DNA of 64,000 nt from a virus, in the IMG/VR virus record IMGVR_UViG_3300007072_000001, positions 35,666-99,665 of that record. One strand, 5' to 3'. The notes under the pieces were generated by a model. It did not search any database and was not told the DNA's origin. It was given only the letters and a program-made list of their open reading frames with translations. Shown here piece after piece: positions 3,408 through 64,000 of the stretch (the first letter of the stretch is position 1; each line of letters opens with the position of its first letter). The position numbers were made by a program, and so were the translations under genes.

Positions 3408-3504
3408 TTAATCCTCCAAATAATAACACATCTACCTATTAATTCTGATTGACTACACTAACTAAAAACAAGATACATTAAAAGATTTCTGAATATTAGG
3501 TTAT

Positions 3505-3552
3505 CAATTTTATTAAAATCAATAAAACTTATTATAAATTTTAATAAAATTG
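3505..3552 (-). repeat. 15-bp perfect inverted repeat 3' of the tnpB remnant
   Basis: CAATTTTATTAAAAT at 3505-3519 is exactly complementary to 3538-3552, with an 18-nt spacer. It lies 18 nt past the stop of the fused transposase ORF. It could be a rho-independent-like terminator (all A/U stem), a right-end hairpin of the element, or part of a vestigial guide RNA. Confidence 0.6.
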
Positions 3553-3570
3553 TTTATCAGTCAACATAGC

Positions 3571-3894
3571 TTATGCTACATTTACTCTGACTGGATGTAA
3601 CCCCACACCCTCTATCCCCTTTGCAAACGCTTCAGGAAATACTTTTTTCATTATTTGATAAGAAGCATTTAAATCTGCATTAATCAATTTACCGTCATTT
3701 GCTTTAAATAATCCTCTGTAAATTCGCCTTGCTTTATTATAATTTTCTTTTATAGGCAGTTCCCTATCCAAAAATGATGTTCCACTTGTATAACTTTCTT
3801 CTATTAGTATTACTTTTATTAATCCTTCTTTAACGTATTTTGTAAGAGTAGGTCTTGTTATTTGCAATAATTCTAATACTTCTTTAGATTTCAT
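3571..3894 (-). pseudogene. IS607 TnpA N-terminus fused to TnpB C-terminus (deletion derivative)
   Basis: Residues 1-28 (MKSKEVLELLQITRPTLTKY, then VKEGLIKV) match the MerR-type helix-turn-helix of IS607 serine recombinases. The remainder (EESYTSGTSFLD, RRIYRGLF, LINADLNASYQIMKK, GIEGVGLHPVRVN) matches the last ~80 residues of TnpB, including the RuvC-III Asp in NAD. The recombinase catalytic domain and RuvC-I/II are gone, so neither activity can remain. The junction falls where both parents have an IKV-like sequence, suggesting deletion at microhomology. The ORF is intact with a perfect sigma-70 promoter and AAGGAG 9 nt before ATG 3894, so a DNA-binding fusion protein may still be made. Confidence 0.85.
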
Positions 3895-15356: not shown

Positions 15357-15575
15357 TCAATTCAGGGAAACCAAATCCCTAATTTTTCTAGTTGTCTCTT
15401 TATTGTCCAAACGATATTTTGCTATAACCATTTCAGCAAATATCACCATAAAAAATTCTATAAGCCCATTGAGATTAATCTTGTTCTTTAATTCCAACTT
15501 CATACTTTTGGTCTCAAAAAGTAATATATCATTTTCAACTTTCACCTTTGGTTTTTCCTGCACTATTTTTCCCAC
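15357..15575 (-). CDS. Hypothetical protein, 72 aa
   Basis: Unrecognised; a hydrophobic helix (LIEFFMVIFAEMVIA) follows a short beta region. The likely start is GTG 15575, which lies within the end of the DnaE C-terminal gene (41-nt overlap). Confidence 0.55.
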   Translation of the reverse strand: MGKIVQEKPKVKVENDILLFETKSMKLELKNKINLNGLIEFFMVIFAEMVIAKYRLDNKETTRKIRDLVSLN

Positions 15576-16194
15576 CTTTCTTTTTATTCTTAGCCGCTGA
15601 TATACTATCTAAATACTCCTCGACTTTTCTATTTTCTGTTTTTCCCCAAGCATTTTCAAAAAAATCATAGTCATACAATATCTTTATAACGTTACTTGGA
15701 ATCTTACGAAAACCACCTTTAGGAGTTTCTGACTTTGCACGGTTCATAAAATCTTCAAAATTTTTATATGGTTTATTTTTAATAATTGTTTCTATAGTTC
15801 TCTCTCCCAACCCCTTGACAATTCTTGCCCCAGCATTTATCTCACCATCTTTGTTGATAGTAAAATGAACACTCATTTCATTTATGTTAAATGCATTAAT
15901 ATGTATTCCATGTTTGTCACAATCATCAATAATGCGGTCTATCTTTTCTTGTTTTTCTTCCGAATTCAACACAGCCAAATTGAAATACTTGCGATAATAA
16001 CATTTAAGATATGCCATTTGAAATGCAACATAAGCATAGGCACAACTATGCGAATTATGTGATACAATATCGTTTGCTAAAAAATTTCTTGGTTCATCAA
16101 TCATTTCTATATCAAAAGTTCTATCTTTGCCAATATGTTTTATATTTTTTATTTTTGAATATTTTATTATTTCCTTACTACCAAATCCCATCAT
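15535..16194 (-). CDS. dnaE: DnaE C-terminal fragment with C-intein
   Basis: 219 aa. Residues 1-47 form the C-terminal splicing half of an intein: block F-like RTFDIEMIDEPRNFLAND and block G IVSHN with the required His-Asn. Splicing would join Ser48, the start of the extein SHSCAYAYVAFQMAYLK, which is the conserved DnaE segment after FNK. The rest has the DnaE helix-hairpin-helix region (AGARIVKGLGERTI near 120). ATG 16194 overlaps the stop of the N-terminal gene (ATGA) and has its own GAGGTG, so this is a real second gene and not a sequencing frameshift. After trans-splicing it supplies the last 172 residues of the polymerase. Confidence 0.92.
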   Translation of the reverse strand: MMGFGSKEIIKYSKIKNIKHIGKDRTFDIEMIDEPRNFLANDIVSHNSHSCAYAYVAFQMAYLKCYYRKYFNLAVLNSEEKQEKIDRIIDDCDKHGIHINAFNINEMSVHFTINKDGEINAGARIVKGLGERTIETIIKNKPYKNFEDFMNRAKSETPKGGFRKIPSNVIKILYDYDFFENAWGKTENRKVEEYLDSISAAKNKKKGGKNSAGKTKGES

Positions 16195-17216
16195 AACACC
16201 TCTTTTATTTTTTTAATAACTACATCAATGTTATTTTCAATATCACTTGCCCAAAATCTCAAAATAATCCATTTTTTATTTTTCAAATAAGTATTACAAG
16301 ACTTATCTTGACCAATATTTCTTTTTTGAATAGCATCTATTTTTTTTCTATTTCGTTTTTTCATCCATTCTGGATTCACGTGGTAATAATCACCGTCAAC
16401 TTGAATTGCTATTTTTCTTTTTATATTTGCTATGTCTATAGAATGAAAACCAACAAGAACCTCGCTTTCAAATCCATCATAAATACTATTTTTTTTCATA
16501 GCATCAATTAACATTATATGTGGTTTTGTAAATTTTTTCGGAAACTTACCTTCCACGTGCATTTTTGCTGTAGTTGCCCTCATACGATTTATTACTTCTT
16601 CACTTCTTTTCCCCGGGTTTCCTTTTCTTTCTCTTTTTTTTGCAGATTCTTTCATTTTATCTATAGCATCCAAACTAAATACCCTGCCTTTTGCTTTTTC
16701 TGATACAGCTTTTAAAGGTAAATAATTATTTTTATTTTTTCCTTTATTGTGCGGTTGATTACCAAATTTCTTAAAAAAATTTCTATTCCTAATTCTTCTC
16801 TCAGACAATTTCTTTAATCTGATATCATTATCTTTTGTTAATCCTTTATTCCATGTATCGCTTATACCTCTATACGCAATTTGCAAAGTTTTATCTTTAT
16901 TTATTTCTTCAACAGTTTTCCAACCTTTATTCGTTAAAAATTTATGATTTTTTGTAGCTTTTATTTTTTTGCCACAACATAATTCAATTTCATAAACATC
17001 TTGTATCCCATTGTCTATAATACTTTTCACTGTATTAAAAATAAATTTATTATTATTAACATCATATGAATAAAGCATTGGTACATTTTTGTTTCTTTTA
17101 TATCTTAAAGTTCCATTAGTAGTTATTTTTGTATTATTATACAAATCCAAAATAGTAGTTTCTTTCTTGCGCATACCACCAAATTTTTTATATATTTTTG
17201 TATCTCCGGTTAAACA
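16054..17216 (-). other. Split intein in DnaE with VSR-like endonuclease
   Basis: Intein boundaries: Cys at 17216-17214 (CLTGDTKIYKK, block A), block B TKNHKFL about 90 residues later, the break between the two genes at 16191-16194, then blocks F/G ending in Asn before Ser at 16053. The first half carries from about residue 125 of the intein NUMOD3-like repeats and a VSR/EDxHD-type nuclease (QVDGDYYH, then a Lys-rich helix and LRFWASDIE). Splicing would yield a 912-aa polymerase. The insertion site, between FNK and SHS, is three residues downstream of the cyanobacterial DnaE split-intein site. Confidence 0.9.
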
Positions 17217-19436
17217 TTTGTTAAAGGCATAACCAGCTGCTTGAGCCAACTCTTCATATGCTTCGTCAACATCTTTTTTGCCATATTTTTTATACAACTT
17301 TTCTTTGTATGGCTCCATTACCATCATAAAACCTTTATCAGGCTTTTCAATATCTCTTCTAATATTGTCAGCCTCACCTATAGATATATCAAGCCAATCC
17401 GCAAGAATATTGTTAATTTGTTCTTGATATAAAAGTAATCCATATGTAGACTCTAAATGAGGTTTAAGTAATTTCGCAGTAGTGTAAGCGCCACCCCATG
17501 ACCTTTTAATATACTCCAAATGATAGCCAACTGACAATGGAGTTGGTCGATTAAGAGCATTAAGCTCAATCAAATTTTTGAATTTGGTTATATTTACCTC
17601 TTTAAGAAGTTCTCTAAAGTTGTGCGTTTCGAACTGAAACACATTCGCAGTATCCCCATCACGAAATATTTGAAGCACCTTATCATCTTTAAGGTCTAAA
17701 TTTAATAAATCAACATCTTTCTTTTCATATTTTTTAATATATTTTTTTGTCAATTGAATAATATCAAGAGCATCAATTCCACATATGTCAATCTTAAGAA
17801 AACCTTTCCCAGTCAAAGTCTTTCCATCAATTGCTGCTATAACATTTCCTTTCGATGATATAACCGGCAAATAATAATAAATTGGTTTATCAGTCATTAT
17901 TATACCAGTTGCATGAATACCAAAATGTCTAATATTTCCTTCAAGCCTCTTTGCCTTATCATAATATGGTCTGAATTCTTTTGGAATTCTACCTTCTGCT
18001 TCGTACACTTCAAGATTATCATTGAAAGAATTCGCCTCAGCAAAAGGAATGTTATAAACCTTAGCAACGTCCTTGAATGCTGATTTTGTTGTGAGGTTTA
18101 CATAATTTGGAATGTGTGAAGTGTTTTCTTCCCCGTATGACTTTATGTAAGCCAAAACTTCTTGACGTTTTGAAGTCTGAAAGTCTATATCGATATCAGG
18201 TTGTTTTTTTCTTGTTGGATTCAAGAAACGTTCAAAACTAAGCCCAAAACGAATTGGGTCCATCTCAGTTATGCCAAGTAGATATGATATAAGACAACCA
18301 CCAGCACTTCCACGACTTACACCAACCTCAATACCATTATTTTTTGCCCAGTTAACTATATCCTGAACAATCCAAAAATATTCAAGGAACCCAAGTTGCT
18401 TTATGACTTTATATTCATAATTCAGACGAGCAACATATTTATCTCTCTTTTTCTGCGGAATTCTTGTATCCAATGCCTTCTTCAACATTGTCTTAATTTT
18501 TGTCTCATCAAAATTTGTTTTTGGAAATACTTCTCCTTTTGGATATATATTAAATTCTTCTATTTTGTCCGCAATCTCACAAGTATTCTCCAGGAATTTG
18601 TCTACCATATCTTCATTAAATACTTTGGTCATAATTGATTTAACTTCGTCATAAGATTTAAGATAAACATCTCTATCATCAAATACCCAACCTTTGCCTT
18701 TTTTAATATCTTCCATTGTAAAATTATTGTCAACGTTATGTATTATATCTTGAAGCTCAGCATCTTCCCTTGAAAGATAATGAGTGTCAATTGTTATTAT
18801 ACTTTTAATCTTTAAGCTTTTGGCTATCTCCTGCATTTTACTCCAAACTGGTCCATAAACTTTTGTTCGCTCTAGAGCAATATATTCAAAATAAAAGTCA
18901 TCACCAAACATTTTCTTGAGACGTTCTGCATTCTTAATGGCTATATCCATTTGACCACTAGTGTCTCTATCACTTTCATTTCCTTTGTTAAGAGCATTAT
19001 CTACATATCGGGCTATAATTCCACTAATACAAGCACTTGATACTATAACATCGCCCTTGAGATATTCAAGAACAGTCCAATCAATTCTTGGTTTATAATA
19101 AAAACCAACTTTGACAGCATCATATTGAGCTTTAAGAAGCTTCCTATACCCAGCTTCATTCTTCGCAAGCAGAATTATATGTTTGTTCTTTTCTGCATCT
19201 TTACTTTTGATTGTCATGTCATTGACAAAATATGCTTCAACACCCAAGATTGGTTTAATCCCGACTCGTTTTGCAGCATCATAGAACTCAAACGCACCAC
19301 TCATGTTGCCATGATTTGTTTGAGCATATGCTTTCATTCCAAGTAATTTTGCTTTCTCTAAATACTTAATTGGTCGATACATTCCATCAAGAACTGAGAA
19401 TGTATCGTGATTGTGAAGGCTGACGTAATTCGACAT
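16191..19436 (-). CDS. dnaE: DNA polymerase III alpha (DnaE) N-terminal fragment with N-intein and endonuclease
   Basis: 1081 aa. Residues 1-740 are DnaE: PHP domain (LHNHDTFSVLDG at 7-18, TNHGNMSG near 40), then the polymerase palm with SRGSAGG near 374 and the catalytic PDIDIDF near 413-419, and the third Asp in FLKIDICGID near 570. Residues 741-1081 are the N-intein plus a VSR-like homing endonuclease. It is the replicative polymerase of the phage, working with helicase, primase and SSB genes here. I chose ATG 19436 (GAGGGG upstream) over an in-frame TTG. Using a bacterial-type C-family polymerase rather than family A or B is uncommon among myoviruses. Confidence 0.95.
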   Translation of the reverse strand: MSNYVSLHNHDTFSVLDGMYRPIKYLEKAKLLGMKAYAQTNHGNMSGAFEFYDAAKRVGIKPILGVEAYFVNDMTIKSKDAEKNKHIILLAKNEAGYRKLLKAQYDAVKVGFYYKPRIDWTVLEYLKGDVIVSSACISGIIARYVDNALNKGNESDRDTSGQMDIAIKNAERLKKMFGDDFYFEYIALERTKVYGPVWSKMQEIAKSLKIKSIITIDTHYLSREDAELQDIIHNVDNNFTMEDIKKGKGWVFDDRDVYLKSYDEVKSIMTKVFNEDMVDKFLENTCEIADKIEEFNIYPKGEVFPKTNFDETKIKTMLKKALDTRIPQKKRDKYVARLNYEYKVIKQLGFLEYFWIVQDIVNWAKNNGIEVGVSRGSAGGCLISYLLGITEMDPIRFGLSFERFLNPTRKKQPDIDIDFQTSKRQEVLAYIKSYGEENTSHIPNYVNLTTKSAFKDVAKVYNIPFAEANSFNDNLEVYEAEGRIPKEFRPYYDKAKRLEGNIRHFGIHATGIIMTDKPIYYYLPVISSKGNVIAAIDGKTLTGKGFLKIDICGIDALDIIQLTKKYIKKYEKKDVDLLNLDLKDDKVLQIFRDGDTANVFQFETHNFRELLKEVNITKFKNLIELNALNRPTPLSVGYHLEYIKRSWGGAYTTAKLLKPHLESTYGLLLYQEQINNILADWLDISIGEADNIRRDIEKPDKGFMMVMEPYKEKLYKKYGKKDVDEAYEELAQAAGYAFNKCLTGDTKIYKKFGGMRKKETTILDLYNNTKITTNGTLRYKRNKNVPMLYSYDVNNNKFIFNTVKSIIDNGIQDVYEIELCCGKKIKATKNHKFLTNKGWKTVEEINKDKTLQIAYRGISDTWNKGLTKDNDIRLKKLSERRIRNRNFFKKFGNQPHNKGKNKNNYLPLKAVSEKAKGRVFSLDAIDKMKESAKKRERKGNPGKRSEEVINRMRATTAKMHVEGKFPKKFTKPHIMLIDAMKKNSIYDGFESEVLVGFHSIDIANIKRKIAIQVDGDYYHVNPEWMKKRNRKKIDAIQKRNIGQDKSCNTYLKNKKWIILRFWASDIENNIDVVIKKIKEVL

Positions 19437-20074
19437 CAATAACCCCTCTTTTGCCTGTCATAATTCTCCCTATTCTTGGCAATATAATATGAGTAGAATT
19501 CCTCTTTTGTTATTTTTACAAACTTGCACAACGATATAAATGAACACAGCATGCTCTCCATAAGCTTCTCCACACGTTTTGCATTAAAATCATAATTCTC
19601 ATAAGTCTTCCAATATTTATAAGGTAATTCATCAAGAACATGACCCCATTCTGTTACTATACAATTAAGTGTTAATCTATAATCTGATGGTTCGCCAACA
19701 GATGTCCAATAAAAATCAAGATCCTCATCAAATTTCCTTATACCAAGGTACAAAAACATATTCATAAAGAAATGCCAAGCATCTATCGCTTCAAATTTCA
19801 ACTCAATACAATCTTCTTCTGATTTTATTCCATTATTAATTCTTTCCTGTAGTTCCCATATCTCGGCTACATAACAATTGAAATGATAGAGAGCCTCTTT
19901 GATACGGTCTTTATTGGTGTGGTCTGGAGTAATTGAACCTCTTTTTTTTGCATAAAACTTCTGGAGCTCGTATTGCATATTCATCATTATGTTCAATGCA
20001 TCTTTATCGTACTGCACCCTTGCAGCCTCAACAACTAATTGAACACATTTATTCTCTGGATTCAATCCACTCAT
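19436..20074 (-). CDS. Dimeric all-alpha dUTPase/MazG-like pyrophosphatase
   Basis: 212 aa, helical. AEIWELQERI (about 69-78) and ELKFEAIDAWHFFMNMFLYLGI (about 92-113) hold the E-x-x-E and E-x-x-D metal motifs of the dimeric dUTPase family, and the C-terminal YIAKNRENYDRQKRGY matches its K-N-x-N...RQ-GY ending. It would hydrolyse dUTP to dUMP, keeping uracil out of phage DNA; the window also has a dCMP deaminase and a UDG-like protein. AAGGAGG precedes ATG 20074; its stop shares a base with the dnaE start. Confidence 0.88.
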   Translation of the reverse strand: MSGLNPENKCVQLVVEAARVQYDKDALNIMMNMQYELQKFYAKKRGSITPDHTNKDRIKEALYHFNCYVAEIWELQERINNGIKSEEDCIELKFEAIDAWHFFMNMFLYLGIRKFDEDLDFYWTSVGEPSDYRLTLNCIVTEWGHVLDELPYKYWKTYENYDFNAKRVEKLMESMLCSFISLCKFVKITKEEFYSYYIAKNRENYDRQKRGY

Positions 20075-21592: not shown

Positions 21593-21712
21593 TTTCTTCT
21601 TATCGTACTCTGCGTAAACATTTTTTGTATTTAACACAATCGCATCGAGATACTTCCCTTTATACTGTGGTGGAATAAATTCTAGCGCAAGATTAATACT
21701 ATCTCCTGTCAA
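21590..21712 (-). CDS. Possible small protein or -1 frameshift extension of the sigma-like gene
   Basis: An open frame (21751 down to 21590) reads EEKFEIQTRLTGDSINLALE, then FIPPQYKGKYLDAIVLNT, and looks coding, but has no ATG. It overlaps the end of the sigma-like gene in the -1 frame. Either translation starts at TTG 21712, or ribosomes slip -1 near CAAAAAC about 36 nt before the sigma-like stop, giving a longer sigma-like protein. The slip heptamer is not optimal. Confidence 0.4.
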   Translation of the reverse strand: MTGDSINLALEFIPPQYKGKYLDAIVLNTKNVYAEYDKKK

Positions 21713-22479
21713 CCTTGTTTGAATCTCAAATTTCTCTTCACTGTGTTTTTGTCATTTTTCCTTATTTTTGATGCTATTTCCTCAAATTGTTCGAGAGTAA
21801 TGACATCGATGTAACTCAAAAATTCATTACCACTTCGTATACCATTAAAGTAGTTCTTTTTTGTGTATATTCTGCCATCGTTCATAAGAGCTATATCACC
21901 AATCCTTATATAGGTCTTTTTTATTTTGCCATATTTCTTTGCAACCGTCTGAAATTCTTTTAATTTGGACTTGTCAATTGGTTTACGTTTTTCTTTTCTA
22001 TCTTGTTTAATTTGAAAATTAAGAATGCGACTGATAACTGTCTCTGATATACCAAACATTTCCGACAACTGCTTTCCATTCCACCCTTCTTTGTGAAATG
22101 ATATAATGTCAGCAATGCGTTTGTCATGCTTGACCATTTCTTCAACGCGCTTTTCAATTTCGATTTCAACATCGACGTTCTGTAATTTCATATCCAGTTC
22201 GCTGATGAGGTCTTCAATCCTGATGTCATCTTCAGTATTGACAACATCATCAAAACTAAGAACGTTTGCATTTGGATTTTTAAGTTCATTGAGTTTGGCA
22301 TACTTCACTCCACGGGATATGAACGACTGGTTGATTGAATCGAGTTTACCTTTGGCATTCCTCTCGATAAAATAAAGAAATGCATCCTGCACTGCATCTT
22401 GAAGTCCATGTGACTCAATGTACCTCTTGTTCTTTGTGACATACTGCTCGTAAGCTTTCTCTAAGATTGCTGTTTCCAT
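21709..22479 (-). CDS. Sigma-factor-like protein
   Basis: 256 aa. Residues 25-70 resemble sigma region 2 of ECF-type factors (GLQDAVQDAFLYFIERN), and residues 128-165 a region-4 helix-turn-helix (IADIISFHKEGWNGKQLSEM then FGISETVISRIL). About 90 further C-terminal residues are unknown. It could redirect host RNA polymerase to phage promoters, perhaps the repeated TAGTTAWTTTTACRTATTTA boxes. ATG 22479 follows CAGGAGG; a terminator and small leader ORF precede the gene. Confidence 0.7.
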   Translation of the reverse strand: METAILEKAYEQYVTKNKRYIESHGLQDAVQDAFLYFIERNAKGKLDSINQSFISRGVKYAKLNELKNPNANVLSFDDVVNTEDDIRIEDLISELDMKLQNVDVEIEIEKRVEEMVKHDKRIADIISFHKEGWNGKQLSEMFGISETVISRILNFQIKQDRKEKRKPIDKSKLKEFQTVAKKYGKIKKTYIRIGDIALMNDGRIYTKKNYFNGIRSGNEFLSYIDVITLEQFEEIASKIRKNDKNTVKRNLRFKQG

Positions 22480-32252: not shown

Positions 32253-32594
32253 TTAAGTCTCAGTTATTGCTATAGTATATGTTTCGAGAAACTCCTTCAT
32301 ATAAGTAAGTATATTGGCATAATCAGATTCGAACTCCTCGTGTGATAGCACACTTTTTGTGTCAACAGAAATAGTAAGAACAAAAACTGGTCGTTGCACA
32401 ATTCCATGATTTGCCCCGACTCCGCCAGCAAATTTTATATCAGAAATATTTACCATCTCTTTTCTTACCCCTCCACCTATAATAAAACTAAGTCCCTTTT
32501 GGTCAAACTTTTTGCATAAATTCAAAAACTCAACTTTTTGAGACTCTGAAAGCTTATCAACAAAAGCTTTGAATACAATTTGAAACTTAATCAT
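32253..32594 (-). CDS. Hypothetical protein, 113 aa
   Basis: Alternating strands and helices (IKFQIVFKAFVDKLSESQKV, SFIIGGGV, PVFVLTISVDT). Not recognised. ATG 32594, 7 nt after AAGGAGG, overlaps the helicase stop by 8 nt; the frame is also open farther upstream, within the helicase gene. Last gene of the helicase transcript. Confidence 0.75.
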   Translation of the reverse strand: MIKFQIVFKAFVDKLSESQKVEFLNLCKKFDQKGLSFIIGGGVRKEMVNISDIKFAGGVGANHGIVQRPVFVLTISVDTKSVLSHEEFESDYANILTYMKEFLETYTIAITET

Positions 32595-33888
32595 CTTCAT
32601 CCTCCTTAAGCTTTGATTTAAACTTTTTCTTTTCTTTACCATCATCATCAACAGTTCCTATTGAATCAACCATTGTGTTGGTTGACCACTTCATTAAGAA
32701 GCTCATATCAATATCTTTTGGACCTTCTCTGTTTTTTACAATTTTAAGTTTTATCATATCTGAAGCGACCTTACCTTTTTTAATAAACGCAACAAAGTCG
32801 CAGTTATGGCTTATCATATCAGAATAACCTATGTTCTCCAAACCAACATCTGCTTGTTCAAGACTTTTTCTATTCGATTGAGCCGCAGTTATAACAATCA
32901 AATCTTCTCTCTTGGCAAGATTCTTGAGCTCTTTTGTTATCATACCAAGATCTTCATGTGTTGGTAATCCAAGACCACTTTGAACTAAGTTAGAACTAAG
33001 ATAATCTATGATAATAAAATCAAGTGGGTATTTCTTCTTAAATTTACGAACTTCATTTATAAAAAAATCTGGTGTTGTCATACCAGTGTGTTCTAAATTA
33101 TAAAGTGGATATTGATTGTCTTTAATTTGTTGAAGAACAGCTTTATATTTTGCTCTATCAACTCTTGCATATTTCAATGCATCAGCATCAATACCACCTT
33201 CTCTTGAGTCAAACATACGTTCAACTTGTTCAAGATACATTTCCAAACTAAAATTTATCCCCCAAAGATATTGTTTCGCAAGGTTGTAGCCCAAGTTAAA
33301 CATTATTTTACTTTTACCTTCACCACTTCGTCCTACAAAAAGATAGAGTTCCTTCTTGTTAAATCCACCAGTGTGTTTATCAAAAACTCGAAATCCAGAC
33401 GAAATGCCAGTTTTAAACCCGCCCTTCTTTACAAAACGATAACGATCAGCAACACCTTCATATATGAAACGGCCTTTTGTTTCTGAAGTCGTATCAATAT
33501 CAGAAATAACTTTGTTTATCTTAGCACTTATCTTGCTCAAATTTATATCTTTGTAATCTACATCTCCAACAATTTCCATAAACTTTTCTTTTGTATATTC
33601 ATTTTTAAGTTGGTCAATAAGAAAATGATAATTCTCCACTGGGTTTCTTGAGCTAAGCTTCTGAAACAAAATCGAAAAATCCGCATGATAATCATGTTCT
33701 TTAACAAACTTTTCGTACTCATCAATGGTTGGAATTTTATCGTACTCTTTATAAAACTTAAGAATAGATACTGCGAACTTCCTTAAACGTTCATCCGAAA
33801 TAAACTTAATGTATGAATGTTCAATAAAATCCTTTATATACTCCTCTTTAAAAAGATAACAAATTGTTTTTTCCATTATTTCTTGCAT
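32587..33888 (-). CDS. Replicative DNA helicase (DnaB/gp41-like)
   Basis: 433 aa. RecA-type helicase core: Walker A GRSGEGKSK near residues 187-195, NFSLEM near 214-219, Walker B DFIIIDYLS near 289-297 and the ITAAQSNR motif near 335-342. The N-terminal ~130 residues are helical as in DnaB. It unwinds the fork with the DnaE polymerase and split primase. A Lys/Asp-rich tail ends the protein. ATG 33888; overlaps the 74-aa upstream gene by 13 nt. Confidence 0.94.
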   Translation of the reverse strand: MQEIMEKTICYLFKEEYIKDFIEHSYIKFISDERLRKFAVSILKFYKEYDKIPTIDEYEKFVKEHDYHADFSILFQKLSSRNPVENYHFLIDQLKNEYTKEKFMEIVGDVDYKDINLSKISAKINKVISDIDTTSETKGRFIYEGVADRYRFVKKGGFKTGISSGFRVFDKHTGGFNKKELYLFVGRSGEGKSKIMFNLGYNLAKQYLWGINFSLEMYLEQVERMFDSREGGIDADALKYARVDRAKYKAVLQQIKDNQYPLYNLEHTGMTTPDFFINEVRKFKKKYPLDFIIIDYLSSNLVQSGLGLPTHEDLGMITKELKNLAKREDLIVITAAQSNRKSLEQADVGLENIGYSDMISHNCDFVAFIKKGKVASDMIKLKIVKNREGPKDIDMSFLMKWSTNTMVDSIGTVDDDGKEKKKFKSKLKEDEDD

Positions 33889-34684: not shown

Positions 34685-35573
34685 ACATTGCCTCCTTAAT
34701 CTGTGCCTTAGTGTAATCATAGAAAAAATATTTCTTACTATGTTTTGTTTGCTTCAACAAAACATCAACTGAAGTTCCATATTCAACAGCAAGAAGTTCA
34801 AACAATCTAACTTTAGCTATAAAATTATTTTTTGGTTTATATTGCGAAATCAGTTGTTCATAAATTTTTCTATCATATCTTTTATAAAGTTTAATAGTAA
34901 TATCCTTTTCTGTGTCCTCAAGGTCATTAAATCTTTTTACATTCATCAAATATCTTATCTTTTTACGTTCAATGTTTGAAAGACTAACATCAAGATATTG
35001 CCAAACTGATGTTATGTCCTTTAATCCTTTCACAACAAGAAGATAGTTGCTGAGGACCTTATCATCAAAAAGCCAATCAATGTAAATTGGGTCCCCGTTA
35101 TGATTGCCGAACTGAACAGCCCTTTTTATAAAACCTCGTATATGAGCATCAGAAAGACCAGACATATAAAAGTTATCCATCAACTTTCTAAATTTGTTCT
35201 TGTATGTATTTTCGTTATTAATAACATATACAATCCCATATTCTTCGTTGTACAACTTCAAAAATAAATCAAGAAGTACTTGACCATTAAGCCTATCAAC
35301 CTTCTTCTCCTTTTGAGGCTTTGCCAACAAACAATCGTCAACTTTAATTTTAACTTTTGTATAAACCTCCACTGACCTTATCTTTATTTCATCTCTGTGT
35401 TTGTCATAACTCTTAAGACTAAAACCTTTAAACAACTCTTCTTGATTGCCTATACTTATTACCTTGCCGTAAAAATATTTATATCTCGCAATAGATGCTA
35501 ATATTGTCCAACGATTATAGTCTTTTGACTTACAAACAAGCAATCCATCTGAATCTTCCAAAAAAATAATCAT
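34674..35573 (-). CDS. Hypothetical protein, 299 aa
   Basis: No motif recognised; N-terminal alpha/beta part with VIS and VKIKVDDC strands, C-terminal helical part (VWQYLDVSLSNIERKK, FIAKVRLFELLAVEYGTSVD). It sits between the UvsW-like helicase (ATGA overlap) and the loader-like gene; replication initiation is a guess from context. Confidence 0.75.
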   Translation of the reverse strand: MIIFLEDSDGLLVCKSKDYNRWTILASIARYKYFYGKVISIGNQEELFKGFSLKSYDKHRDEIKIRSVEVYTKVKIKVDDCLLAKPQKEKKVDRLNGQVLLDLFLKLYNEEYGIVYVINNENTYKNKFRKLMDNFYMSGLSDAHIRGFIKRAVQFGNHNGDPIYIDWLFDDKVLSNYLLVVKGLKDITSVWQYLDVSLSNIERKKIRYLMNVKRFNDLEDTEKDITIKLYKRYDRKIYEQLISQYKPKNNFIAKVRLFELLAVEYGTSVDVLLKQTKHSKKYFFYDYTKAQIKEAMYEG

Positions 35574-37048
35574 TCTATCTCCTTCAGTATTTCGTCAACA
35601 CTTTCAACAACTGTGACTTCAAATTCTGGTTCTGATTGATAAGCCTTAATTCTACGTTTTGCATACCTTTGAAAATAATCTATCTTTTTATCCTCTGGAT
35701 GCTTTTGATTCCATTCCTTAACTTTAGGATTGTAGTCGTAGAAATCAATAACATATGGAGATTCACCATCGTCTTTTGGTCTCAAAACTCTTCCAACTTG
35801 TTGCACTGCATCAATTAATGACTTTGCTGCCCTTGCGTTTATCAACACGTTAAGGTTTGGTACATCAACTCCTTCCCCAAATAATGTTGAGATTACTATA
35901 TTGAATTCGCCTGTATTCATCTTCTTTATTGTCCTTATCTTTTCTTGTGATGAATCTTTTCCCGTTATGACCTTAATATTAAATCCAATATCATCAATGC
36001 GTTTAAGATGCTCGAGGATTCTGTTTATGTGATTAAGTCGAATTACGGATATAAGAACAATCTTATTTCGTTTTGCAAATTCATATGCAATTTTTGCAAT
36101 AATAGCATTCCGTTCATCGCTCTCAGCGAGAATCTTATATTGACTTGGATAAGCTAACTTCACATTCGAATTATGCTTCACTCTCACAAAATAAATATAA
36201 GGCTTTGCCAAATACCCCATTCTGATAAGTTCAGAAATCGACTTGTGATAAATCTTTGGACCAATCAGAGCCTCAATCATCATATCAGCCCCATCTTCTC
36301 TTTTTGGAGTAGCACTCAATCCAATACGATATAATGTATTATTTGCTTTTTTTGCAATTCTTCCAAGTTCATTAGCTGCAACATGATGTGTTTCATCAAA
36401 TATAATCACCTTGCAATCTCGTAAAATATGATTCCACTTTCCTGTAAGAAGTGATTGAAATGTCGCAATAGTGATTGTGTTTTCTTTTTTGTAAAATGTG
36501 ATGTTTCCTCCTATTGTATTAAATTCCGTTTTGCGCAATCCCATACGTTCTATAATTTTATCTTGAAGTTGTCCCAACAATGCTGTTCGATTCACAACTA
36601 TCAATGTTGGAAGATTGAGGTCAGCAGTCAACTTCACAAACATTTCAGTCTTTCCACTTCCAGTTGGAGATTGTATAATACCTCTTTTCTTTTTCTTGCA
36701 AACCTCATTAACTTCAACTTGATAACTCCTTTGTTGTTGACCTTCTAATTTAACATCATCAACTTTAACTTCATGATGTGCATAACGTTTTATAATTTTA
36801 TATTTAAGACCTTGTTTATTAAAAAATATTGTCATTCGTTTAACAAGCCCACTGTATGTTTCCATAATACCATCTTCATTCACCCAAAGCAATCTTTGCC
36901 TTCCATCCCAAAGTTTATTTTGGTACGCCTTAGAAAAGAAATAACCCTGCTTGCGATACGACAGCTGGTCGCTGAGCATCTCCGCGTAATGTTCATCTTT
37001 AAGACCATAAATTTTCGTATAAACTGGTTCCACATACAATTTTATCAT
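35570..37048 (-). CDS. UvsW-like SF2 DNA helicase
   Basis: 492 aa. N-terminal ~100-residue domain, then SF2 motifs: Q-motif/QQQRSYQ, Walker A SPTGSGKTE near 129-137, DETHH near 222-226, GLSATPKRED near 245-254, STLFGEGVDVP near 389-399 and the motif VI QQVGRVLRP near 418-426. It matches phage UvsW helicases that remodel recombination intermediates and R-loop origins. ATG 37048 follows AGGTG. It is the first gene of the DNA half, directly below the 37.05-37.39 kb junction. Confidence 0.92.
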   Translation of the reverse strand: MIKLYVEPVYTKIYGLKDEHYAEMLSDQLSYRKQGYFFSKAYQNKLWDGRQRLLWVNEDGIMETYSGLVKRMTIFFNKQGLKYKIIKRYAHHEVKVDDVKLEGQQQRSYQVEVNEVCKKKKRGIIQSPTGSGKTEMFVKLTADLNLPTLIVVNRTALLGQLQDKIIERMGLRKTEFNTIGGNITFYKKENTITIATFQSLLTGKWNHILRDCKVIIFDETHHVAANELGRIAKKANNTLYRIGLSATPKREDGADMMIEALIGPKIYHKSISELIRMGYLAKPYIYFVRVKHNSNVKLAYPSQYKILAESDERNAIIAKIAYEFAKRNKIVLISVIRLNHINRILEHLKRIDDIGFNIKVITGKDSSQEKIRTIKKMNTGEFNIVISTLFGEGVDVPNLNVLINARAAKSLIDAVQQVGRVLRPKDDGESPYVIDFYDYNPKVKEWNQKHPEDKKIDYFQRYAKRRIKAYQSEPEFEVTVVESVDEILKEIE

Positions 37049-37159
37049 ATAAATCACCTAAAAAATAAATGATGATGATGATGATGAAAAATAAATGATG
37101 ATGATGATGAAAAATTTCTATTTGTAGGATAGGAGAAGTTGCGTACGCACGCAATATCC

Positions 37160-37218
37160 TTATCATCATATTTTTCAACTTTATTTCTTTTTTTTCTTAT
37201 CATCATATTTTCCAACTT
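37160..37218. repeat. Two 22-nt iteron-like direct repeats
   Basis: TTATCATCATATTTT followed by TCAACTT at 37160-37181 and the same with one mismatch (CCAACTT) at 37197-37218, 37 bp apart. They lie beside the (ATC)n blocks in the junction and could be initiator-binding iterons. Confidence 0.55.
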
Positions 37219-37329
37219 CAATTTCTTTCTCAATATCTTAATATTATATCCCAGTACTGGTAATCGATATCGGGCGTGTGGCCTGCGTAGGGGATGTTTG
37301 TACGAAAATAATGTATACATCGTTTATTA

Positions 37330-37356
37330 CACTCTAAGATGACCATAGAGTGGTCA
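37330..37356 (-). promoter_or_regulatory. Mutually exclusive hairpins (attenuator-like)
   Basis: On the minus strand TGACCA-CTCTA-TGGTCA (37356-37340) and CACTCTA-TGGTCATCT-TAGAGTG (37352-37330) share bases, so only one can form. A TTTTTT run just precedes them. This is 35-60 nt after the last gene of the virion half. Confidence 0.45.
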
Positions 37357-37390
37357 AAAAACCGTTCTCTTTGGGCCAAGGTTGATATAT

Positions 37391-37660
37391 TTATTTGGTC
37401 CTTATAATATCATAATAAACAGACCTACCAAACGCCTGTTCCAAATTCTCTTCAAAAAGAGATGTATTCTCGTTTTTTGGTAAGTAAAGCATAAACATTA
37501 CCTTAGGAGATTTGTAGAACTGAATACGAAACTTTTTGAAGTTATTGAAACAAATTTCCTTTATTCTATCCTGAACCGAAGTTTCTACAAGAATAGTCTC
37601 CTTATTAATTTTAGCATATTTCCTTCCATTCTTGTAATACGTTCTAAAAATAAATGCCAT
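37391..37660 (-). CDS. Hypothetical protein, 89 aa
   Basis: Beta-rich basic protein (MAFIFRTYYKNGRKYAKI, VMFMLYLPKNENT) with a helical end. Not recognised. Last gene of the virion half. Confidence 0.7.
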   Translation of the reverse strand: MAFIFRTYYKNGRKYAKINKETILVETSVQDRIKEICFNNFKKFRIQFYKSPKVMFMLYLPKNENTSLFEENLEQAFGRSVYYDIIRTK

Positions 37661-37672
37661 ACCTCACCTCAC

Positions 37673-37903
37673 CTATATTATAGAATTCATTACCTCCTGA
37701 AAATACTTCTCTAATGCATATCCAGGATTGTAAATTAATTTTAATTTTTCGATATTTTCCTTTTCCTTGGCAGTTAATGGAGCTTGCGGAGCCTTGTATT
37801 TATAATCTTTTCTACACTCTTCAATCTTCTCCTTTTTTTTGTATGATTTACACTGATGAGCTCTTCCTTTCGTTTTAATTCCACAATCTACACACCATCC
37901 CAT
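37673..37903 (-). CDS. Small zinc-finger protein, 76 aa
   Basis: CVDCG (4-8) with HQC (16-18) and a further Cys near residue 29 suggest one zinc site, followed by a basic then helical tail. Its family is unknown to me. A strong GGAGG precedes ATG 37903. Confidence 0.7.
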   Translation of the reverse strand: MGWCVDCGIKTKGRAHQCKSYKKKEKIEECRKDYKYKAPQAPLTAKEKENIEKLKLIYNPGYALEKYFQEVMNSII

Positions 37904-37914
37904 TTTATTCCCTC

Positions 37915-38973
37915 CTATCGTTTTAAAAAATCTAATATGTTTATCTCACAATTATCTTTATAAGAAAAAACCTTTCCAATAATAGCATCAGCATAACCCA
38001 TATCCATTGCTTGTTTACGTTTTGTGAAATCCAATGTATCACAAGGAATCGTTTTTGGAGCACAAGCAACTACATCAGGCCCTCCATACATAGTAAGTAG
38101 TTCAATAAATTGTTCCAATATTACTTCTTGACCGTTCATAACAAGAGGAAGTGTTCCAATACCAACATCTCTAAACGCTTCATATTTTTTATTATCCGGT
38201 GCTCCTTGAGAGACTCCTAAATCTGATACATCATCTGGATAACAATACATAATCATAACTTTCTCAATCTTTTTATCTGGGAATGTTTTGTTATAATTAG
38301 CAAGAACTGCAAATGGATTATTTGCCGCAACTCCACCGTCAACCATCCATTGTGGTGATTTTCTTTGTTGTACGAGAGGTTGTATATTTATTGCGTCAAA
38401 TGCTATCGGAATCCCAGATGAAGCACATAAAGCATCAAATAATTTTACATCTTTATACTGCGGGTCCCAAGAGTTTATAAACTCTGGTTTTTTTGTATTA
38501 AGATTTCCAACACAAACTGCAAAATGTGTTTCTATGTTTGTGACAACATCTCCAACATTCTGATCTCCAAAAACATCTTTGAGTTTATTCTTTAGTGGAC
38601 TTCTATCAAGTACTGACTTTGCTCCAGTTATAGCCCCACCAATAACACGTGGCCACCCAAGGTCTCCATTATAAACATCAGAGTTTTTATTAATAGATTC
38701 CCATACTTCAATGGCAGTCATAAAAGGGTCTGGTAATTTTGGCATTCCTTCAGGTGGAGGTGGTAATACAGCTCCAAATTCCGCAAACAAAGCTGCATTA
38801 AGTGAACCAACTGAAGTACCGACTATAAGGTCTGCGTCTTGAACAACACCAGCTTGTGATAGTGCTACCATCCATCCTGCTTGATATGCTCCAGCAGCCC
38901 CACCACCACAACAAAATATTGCAAATCTTTTCGTTCCTGCTAAATCCAAAATTGGTATTGTTTGCAAATTCAT
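37915..38973 (-). CDS. Patatin-like phospholipase
   Basis: 352 aa. Oxyanion-loop GGGAAGAYQAG at 23-33, nucleophile elbow GTSVGS (Ser54), and the dyad partner DGGVAANNPF (Asp212). Patatins hydrolyse membrane phospholipid acyl chains. The usual Arg/Lys of the GGGxRG loop is Ala here, which may lower activity. A patatin in a phage late region is unusual; membrane attack at lysis or an effect on a host defence membrane are possible. No signal peptide is seen. Confidence 0.88.
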   Translation of the reverse strand: MNLQTIPILDLAGTKRFAIFCCGGGAAGAYQAGWMVALSQAGVVQDADLIVGTSVGSLNAALFAEFGAVLPPPPEGMPKLPDPFMTAIEVWESINKNSDVYNGDLGWPRVIGGAITGAKSVLDRSPLKNKLKDVFGDQNVGDVVTNIETHFAVCVGNLNTKKPEFINSWDPQYKDVKLFDALCASSGIPIAFDAINIQPLVQQRKSPQWMVDGGVAANNPFAVLANYNKTFPDKKIEKVMIMYCYPDDVSDLGVSQGAPDNKKYEAFRDVGIGTLPLVMNGQEVILEQFIELLTMYGGPDVVACAPKTIPCDTLDFTKRKQAMDMGYADAIIGKVFSYKDNCEINILDFLKR

Positions 38974-63702: not shown

Positions 63703-64000
63703 TCTCCAAAGCCATTGAAACAATAAATTAAAATTTGTTGGTTGTAGTATTGCATCTGGAGTTGGTATTGAAGTTATTGTTAGCGTCACTGTGGGTGTTG
63801 CCGTAGGAGTTATAGTAGAAGTAATAGTTTGAGTTATAGTTTGAGTTATAGTAGAAGTAATAGTTCTAGTTATAGTCGGAGTAGCTGTTCTAGTAATAGT
63901 TGGAGTCACTGTTTGAGTAATAGTAGGAGTAGCTGTTCTAGTAATAGTTGGAGTAGCTGTTCTAGTAATAGTTGGAGTCACTGTTTGAGTAATAGTAGGA
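63700..64000 (-). CDS. TPT-repeat protein, 5' end outside the window
   Basis: At least 99 codons are open to the window edge. Octapeptide-like units (TPTITRTA, TPTITQTV) repeat with a 24-nt DNA period, then a short unique end FNLLFQWLWR. Thr/Pro-rich repeats of this type are typical of extended linkers or surface stalks. It precedes the secreted protein gene. The true start lies beyond 64000. Confidence 0.75.
   Translation of the reverse strand, partial: PTITQTVTPTITRTATPTITRTATPTITQTVTPTITRTATPTITRTITSTITQTITQTITSTITPTATPTVTLTITSIPTPDAILQPTNFNLLFQWLWR
63781..64000 (-). repeat. 24-bp minisatellite in the TPT-repeat gene
   Basis: Units close to GTAGCTGTTCTAGTAATAGT-TGGA (plus strand) repeat in tandem with diverged copies toward 63781, running off the right edge. 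All units keep the reading frame, so repeat number can vary without breaking the gene. Confidence 0.85.

Follow-up and report, generated by a model that had tools for sequence, protein, structure and literature searches.

A repeat-bearing gap at the head of a phage replication module as a candidate DNA control site and possible replication origin

What does a packed phage genome hold in the 333 bp that stand at the head of its replication genes? The window analysed here, 64,000 nucleotides in length, comprises bases 35,666-99,665 of a 99,665-bp virus record, and all genes selected by a codon-based gene model lie on its minus strand. Within a 24-nt repeat array, one end of the record (L003:1-120) overlaps the other (window 63881-64000) exactly over 120 bp; the map is therefore probably circular, about 99.5 kb in length, and was opened in a repeat region. 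In the direction of transcription, a UvsW-type helicase lies directly past the gap and heads a packed run of replication genes, in the order DnaB, exonuclease, primase-like protein, DnaE-type polymerase and primase; farther along come the portal, head-protease-like and major head genes. Past the record ends the map continues with a baseplate J-like gene, a patatin-like gene and a pair of small unknown genes, and so returns to the junction. The gap is a module junction, with tail and baseplate genes plus three further genes upstream and the replication genes downstream. A sequence-only reading had set the boundary between virion and replication genes exactly here; this is correct in outline, but the patatin-like phospholipase and the two small unknown genes (37391-38973) intervene.

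Three observations belong to this gene map. The patatin-like phospholipase gene (37915-38973, minus strand) ends the tail module. The DnaE-type polymerase occupies two minus-strand frames, 16191-19439 and 15535-16194, the first with an unmatched tail after residue 830; the split is perhaps an intein or homing insertion. A 256-aa protein at 21709-22479 (minus strand) has a weak helix-turn-helix match and looks sigma-factor-like by eye, its family matches being weak throughout.

The features of the junction and its surroundings are as follows.

32587-33888, minus strand: DnaB-like replicative helicase (family matches, PHROG and Pfam)
35570-37048, minus strand: UvsW-type DNA helicase, first gene past the junction (PHROG phrog_16, E 1.6e-74; Pfam ResIII, Helicase_C)
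37054-37059, minus strand: ribosome-binding site AGGTGA of the UvsW-type helicase gene, read from the sequence
37058-37390: gap between genes at the module junction (gene model; codon scores in all frames)
37061-37084, plus strand: left repeat copy 1, AAAAATAAATGATGATGATGATGA, exact 24-nt repeat
37087-37110, plus strand: left repeat copy 2, identical to copy 1, 26 bp on
37139-37154: 6-bp hairpin TTGCGTGCGTACGCAA, the only copy in the record
37140-37149: 10-bp palindrome TGCGTACGCA, core of that hairpin
37150-37251, minus strand: 34-codon open segment with coding-like codon use (score 20.5), possible gene remnant
37159-37181, minus strand: right repeat copy 2, minus sense GTTGAAAAATATGATGATAAG, direct repeat
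37196-37218, minus strand: right repeat copy 1, minus sense GTTGGAAAATATGATGATAAG, direct repeat 37 bp from copy 2, start to start
37159-37248: least stable 90-bp duplex within the junction, a candidate for unwinding
37243-37248, minus strand: TATAAT hexamer without a fitting -35 box (sigma-70-like site scan)
37251-37260: perfect palindrome CCAGTACTGG, 2 bp upstream of TATAAT
37265-37272: 8-bp palindrome CGATATCG
37265-37304: GC-rich patch
37311-37320: 10-bp palindrome ATGTATACAT
37331-37355, minus strand: two short hairpins that overlap and exclude each other (37331-37351 and 37341-37355), as read from the sequence
37391-37660, minus strand: unknown 89-aa gene, last before the junction (gene model)

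As a whole, the gap does not read as a gene. Codon scores over its entire length are negative in all six frames, each with 3-10 stops, and an 88-aa frame at 37054-37320 was rejected on its overall score of -13.5 and the lack of a homologue, though its middle part looks coding. The gene model leaves 13 gaps of at least 140 nt, the junction included; most of the others hold missed genes or a tRNA, those of 345, 411 and 426 nt containing coding-like segments of 90, 130 and 64 aa, and the junction is the longest in which no missed gene or tRNA was seen. The 34-codon segment scores within the range of real genes (14.4 +/- 6.3 for real 34-codon windows), a value that 0.1% of shuffles of the whole junction and 1.4% of local ones attain. 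No homologue of it was found in the record or among 50,697 phage records, and no ribosome-binding site was seen by eye. Its purine-rich make-up may explain the coding-like score; it is also possible that it is the remnant of a decayed gene.

The repeats stand out. Every element that the sequence-only reading had listed was recovered: the (GAT)n blocks, the pair of 22-nt repeats 37 bp apart, the 6-bp hairpin, the perfect palindrome, the GC-rich patch and the two mutually exclusive hairpins, whose fold energy is ordinary. The left repeats hold the sole (ATG/GAT)n runs of at least four units in the 99,665-bp record, and the right repeats are identical at 22 of 23 positions. The longest exact direct repeat of the junction has 24 nt; none of 300 dinucleotide shuffles had one longer than 14. 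GC-rich 10-bp palindromes (at least six G/C) number ten in the record, two of them in the junction, and none of 1000 shuffles had two; counted together, palindromes of at least 8 bp exceed chance weakly (five versus a shuffle mean of 2.3, p 0.08). All four occurrences in the record of the pattern AAAATA[N0-2]TGATGAT fall in the junction, and the similarity of left to right repeats is no better than in shuffles.

The candidate unwinding region ranks 355 of 99,575 overlapping windows, within the weakest 0.4% of 90-bp duplexes in the record, while AT content alone is less extreme (rank 1,327 of 99,606 at 60 bp). The GC-rich patch, at 60% GC over 40 nt, ranks 42 of 99,626 overlapping windows, and no other 95-nt window of the record is as rich in pyrimidines as 37060-37154 on the minus strand. 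RNA folding of the junction is no stronger than chance (z -1.18, -1.01 and -0.58); among GC-corrected 120-nt windows, 37096-37215 ranks an ordinary 324 of 2489. This ordinary folding points to sites acting at the DNA level. A structured RNA or riboswitch was rejected on these z-scores and on the absence of any Rfam family match at the junction, as was a long imperfect hairpin pairing right with left repeats (z -1.01, with left-right similarity at shuffle level). Relative to GC content, the 120-nt window with the strongest folding in the record is 3496-3615, part of which falls in an AT-rich gap (3408-3570).

Taken together, position, repeats, palindromes and weak duplex speak for a control site that acts at the DNA level and stands before the replication genes. 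Our tentative reading, drawn from the sequence, is of a cis-acting site that would most likely be a replication origin of the kind built from direct repeats and an AT-rich unwinding stretch. In such an origin, the paired repeats (37061-37110 and 37159-37218), the palindromes or both would be binding sites for a protein of the phage or its host; the weak duplex at 37159-37248 would open and take up the DnaB helicase, primase and DnaE-type polymerase of the phage; and replication would start at the junction.

The junction has direct repeats beyond chance and a candidate AT-rich unwinding element, as such origins do; several other signals of an origin were looked for and not found. A GC-skew profile, which had been suggested as a check, keeps one sign round the whole record (40 windows of 2.5 kb) and does not change it at the junction; third-position skew on the coding strand is nearly equal below (0.203) and above (0.225). 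No DnaA box (TTATNCACA) occurs within one mismatch in 36900-37500, the nearest exact match lying at 36785 inside the helicase gene, and a DnaA-dependent origin was rejected on this ground. Iterons are usually spaced by whole helical turns, a rule that is not universal; the spacings here, 26 and 37 bp, amount to about 2.5 and 3.5 turns and are thus out of helical phase, and the repeats stand two plus two, unlike a regular iteron array. The 299-aa and 205-aa proteins encoded between UvsW and DnaB gave no detectable homology to an initiator or loader, and single-sequence structure models of them were unusable (pLDDT 37.6 and 47.2). The earlier proposal of an origin with iterons is compatible with the location, direct repeats, palindromes and weak duplex, but a regular array, whole-turn spacing, a DnaA box and a skew change were not found.

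A comparison with described origins highlights both likeness and difference. In the Bacillus subtilis phage SPP1 (PMC6316719), both origins, oriL and oriR, consist of direct repeats and an AT-rich unwinding element; the junction resembles them in having direct repeats that adjoin an AT-rich stretch, and resembles oriR in its long intergenic location. A DnaB-type helicase gene in the genome is a further likeness. Unlike SPP1, the present phage has no recognisable gp38-like initiator or gp39-like loader, the origin function of the junction is putative, and its 35-40 kb region has no sequence similarity to any phage record. With the R-loop origins of T4, oriF and ori(uvsY) (PMC3016281), the junction shares a TATAAT followed by weak duplex and a neighbouring UvsW-type helicase gene. 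No middle promoter is shown at the junction, and the RNA:DNA hybrid advantage in the minus sense is unremarkable (it ranks 6,585 of 99,605 over 60 nt, and 11,496 of 99,575 over 90 nt), on which a T4-type R-loop origin in that sense was rejected. The iteron origin of the phage satellite PLE likewise has repeats within a noncoding region, but PLE has a RepA_N initiator (PMC7145576), and none was recognised here.

The phage's own promoters bear on how the replication genes are switched on. A 24-nt motif, ATAGTTATTTTTTnnTATTTAnTA, has ten minus-strand sites scoring at least 26, while the best plus-strand score is 11.8 and the best in a reversed control 14.3; the matrix was trained on nine of them, and the tenth (43466, score 28.4) lay outside the training set. 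By first base the sites lie at 63703, 57875, 43466, 7245 and 6250 in the window, with five more in L003/L004. The motif stands close upstream of ribosome-binding sites; nine of the ten sites fall in modelled gaps, 9-25 nt from a gene start, and eight are in the virion half of the map; the motif also exceeds the control maximum in two of five related records, L065 (24.3 and 22.6) and L066 (17.2). It is likely the late promoter of this phage; the promoters of AR9 are an example of a phage promoter motif (PMC5312081). The phage promoter motif (ATAGTTATTTTTTnnTATTTA) is absent from the junction, where its best score is -1.5 (minus strand) versus at least 26 for the ten sites, and a late-promoter reading was rejected accordingly. 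The junction is therefore not of that promoter class, and the replication genes need another promoter: below 37 kb the motif has no strong site before them, just a weak one at 21593. No intrinsic terminator (GC-rich stem followed by a T run) was found in 37000-37700. The suggestion that late and early transcripts meet here agrees with the location, direct repeats, palindromes and weak duplex, but has neither a terminator-like site nor unusual RNA structure on its side.

That other promoter could be the whole function of the site. In this alternative, which we hold to be a real possibility though short of an even chance, the junction is the promoter and operator of the replication operon and no replication starts there: a regulator bound to CCAGTACTGG beside the TATAAT would make up for the lack of a -35 box, and the repeats would serve as additional sites for regulators. 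Both the 2-bp juxtaposition of palindrome and hexamer and the gene map speak for it. Among high-ranking sigma-70-like sites in 25-37 kb, a single one was called intergenic (32506), and it lies inside a gene missed by the model; with no strong site of the phage motif serving the replication genes, a promoter is expected near the junction. Yet no convincing sigma-70 promoter was found there, sigma-70-like sites occur at chance frequency in the region and the window, the palindrome with its TATAAT has no second occurrence in the record within 3 mismatches of 18, and read-through from late promoters could serve the replication operon. We place an origin slightly ahead of a promoter or operator alone, and both may hold together. 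One form of their union, which we consider improbable, is a two-fold arranged origin-promoter in which a single regulator would switch on the replication operon as well as open the origin, and the UvsW-type helicase, as the first gene product, would act back on the site; two repeats on one strand and two of related form (the AAAATA[N0-2]TGATGAT pattern) on the other would flank the TGCGTACGCA hairpin. The layout is a guess, since left and right repeats are no more alike than shuffles would give.

It is unlikely that the gap is a functionless spacer left by a decayed gene and expanded trinucleotide repeats. Tracts of (GAT)n can grow by slippage, and the 34-codon segment could be what remains of the gene; but neither repeat period, 26 or 37 bp, is a multiple of 3, no homologue of the segment was found, the two GC-rich palindromes go beyond chance, and 333 bp without function would be unusual for so packed a genome. 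Least probable of all is a different DNA site, for packaging, partition or recombination. Such sites also show palindromes and paired repeats; the portal and head genes lie far from the junction on the map.

Relatives of this phage are remote or fragmentary. The major head protein is 28.6% identical to gp27 of phage G, and named relatives are remote. IMG/VR was queried with UvsW, DnaB, DnaE, the major head protein and baseplate J, and genome contigs with baseplate J and the major head protein; the nearest relatives found are five head-protein-bearing fragments at 61-82% identity, and UvsW is absent from all five records. The junction with its flanks matched one of these five records, over just 28 bases in a GAT run, and no relative spanning the junction was found in the collections searched. 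The right-repeat pair pattern had no match in IMG/VR, the junction DNA none to plasmids, and the 35-40 kb region no DNA match to phages, with just short partial phage matches at E up to 1. Four of 48 UvsW-type loci in IMG/VR have apparent upstream gaps of at least 200 bp, all of them partial matches with extrapolated starts, so a large gap does not regularly accompany uvsW. A literature search returned the analogues but not this site.

Our analysis presents the junction as a small and precise target for learning how an uncultured, isolated phage lineage starts replication. The new motif describes a promoter class that stands mostly before virion genes, and the replication module must be switched on differently.
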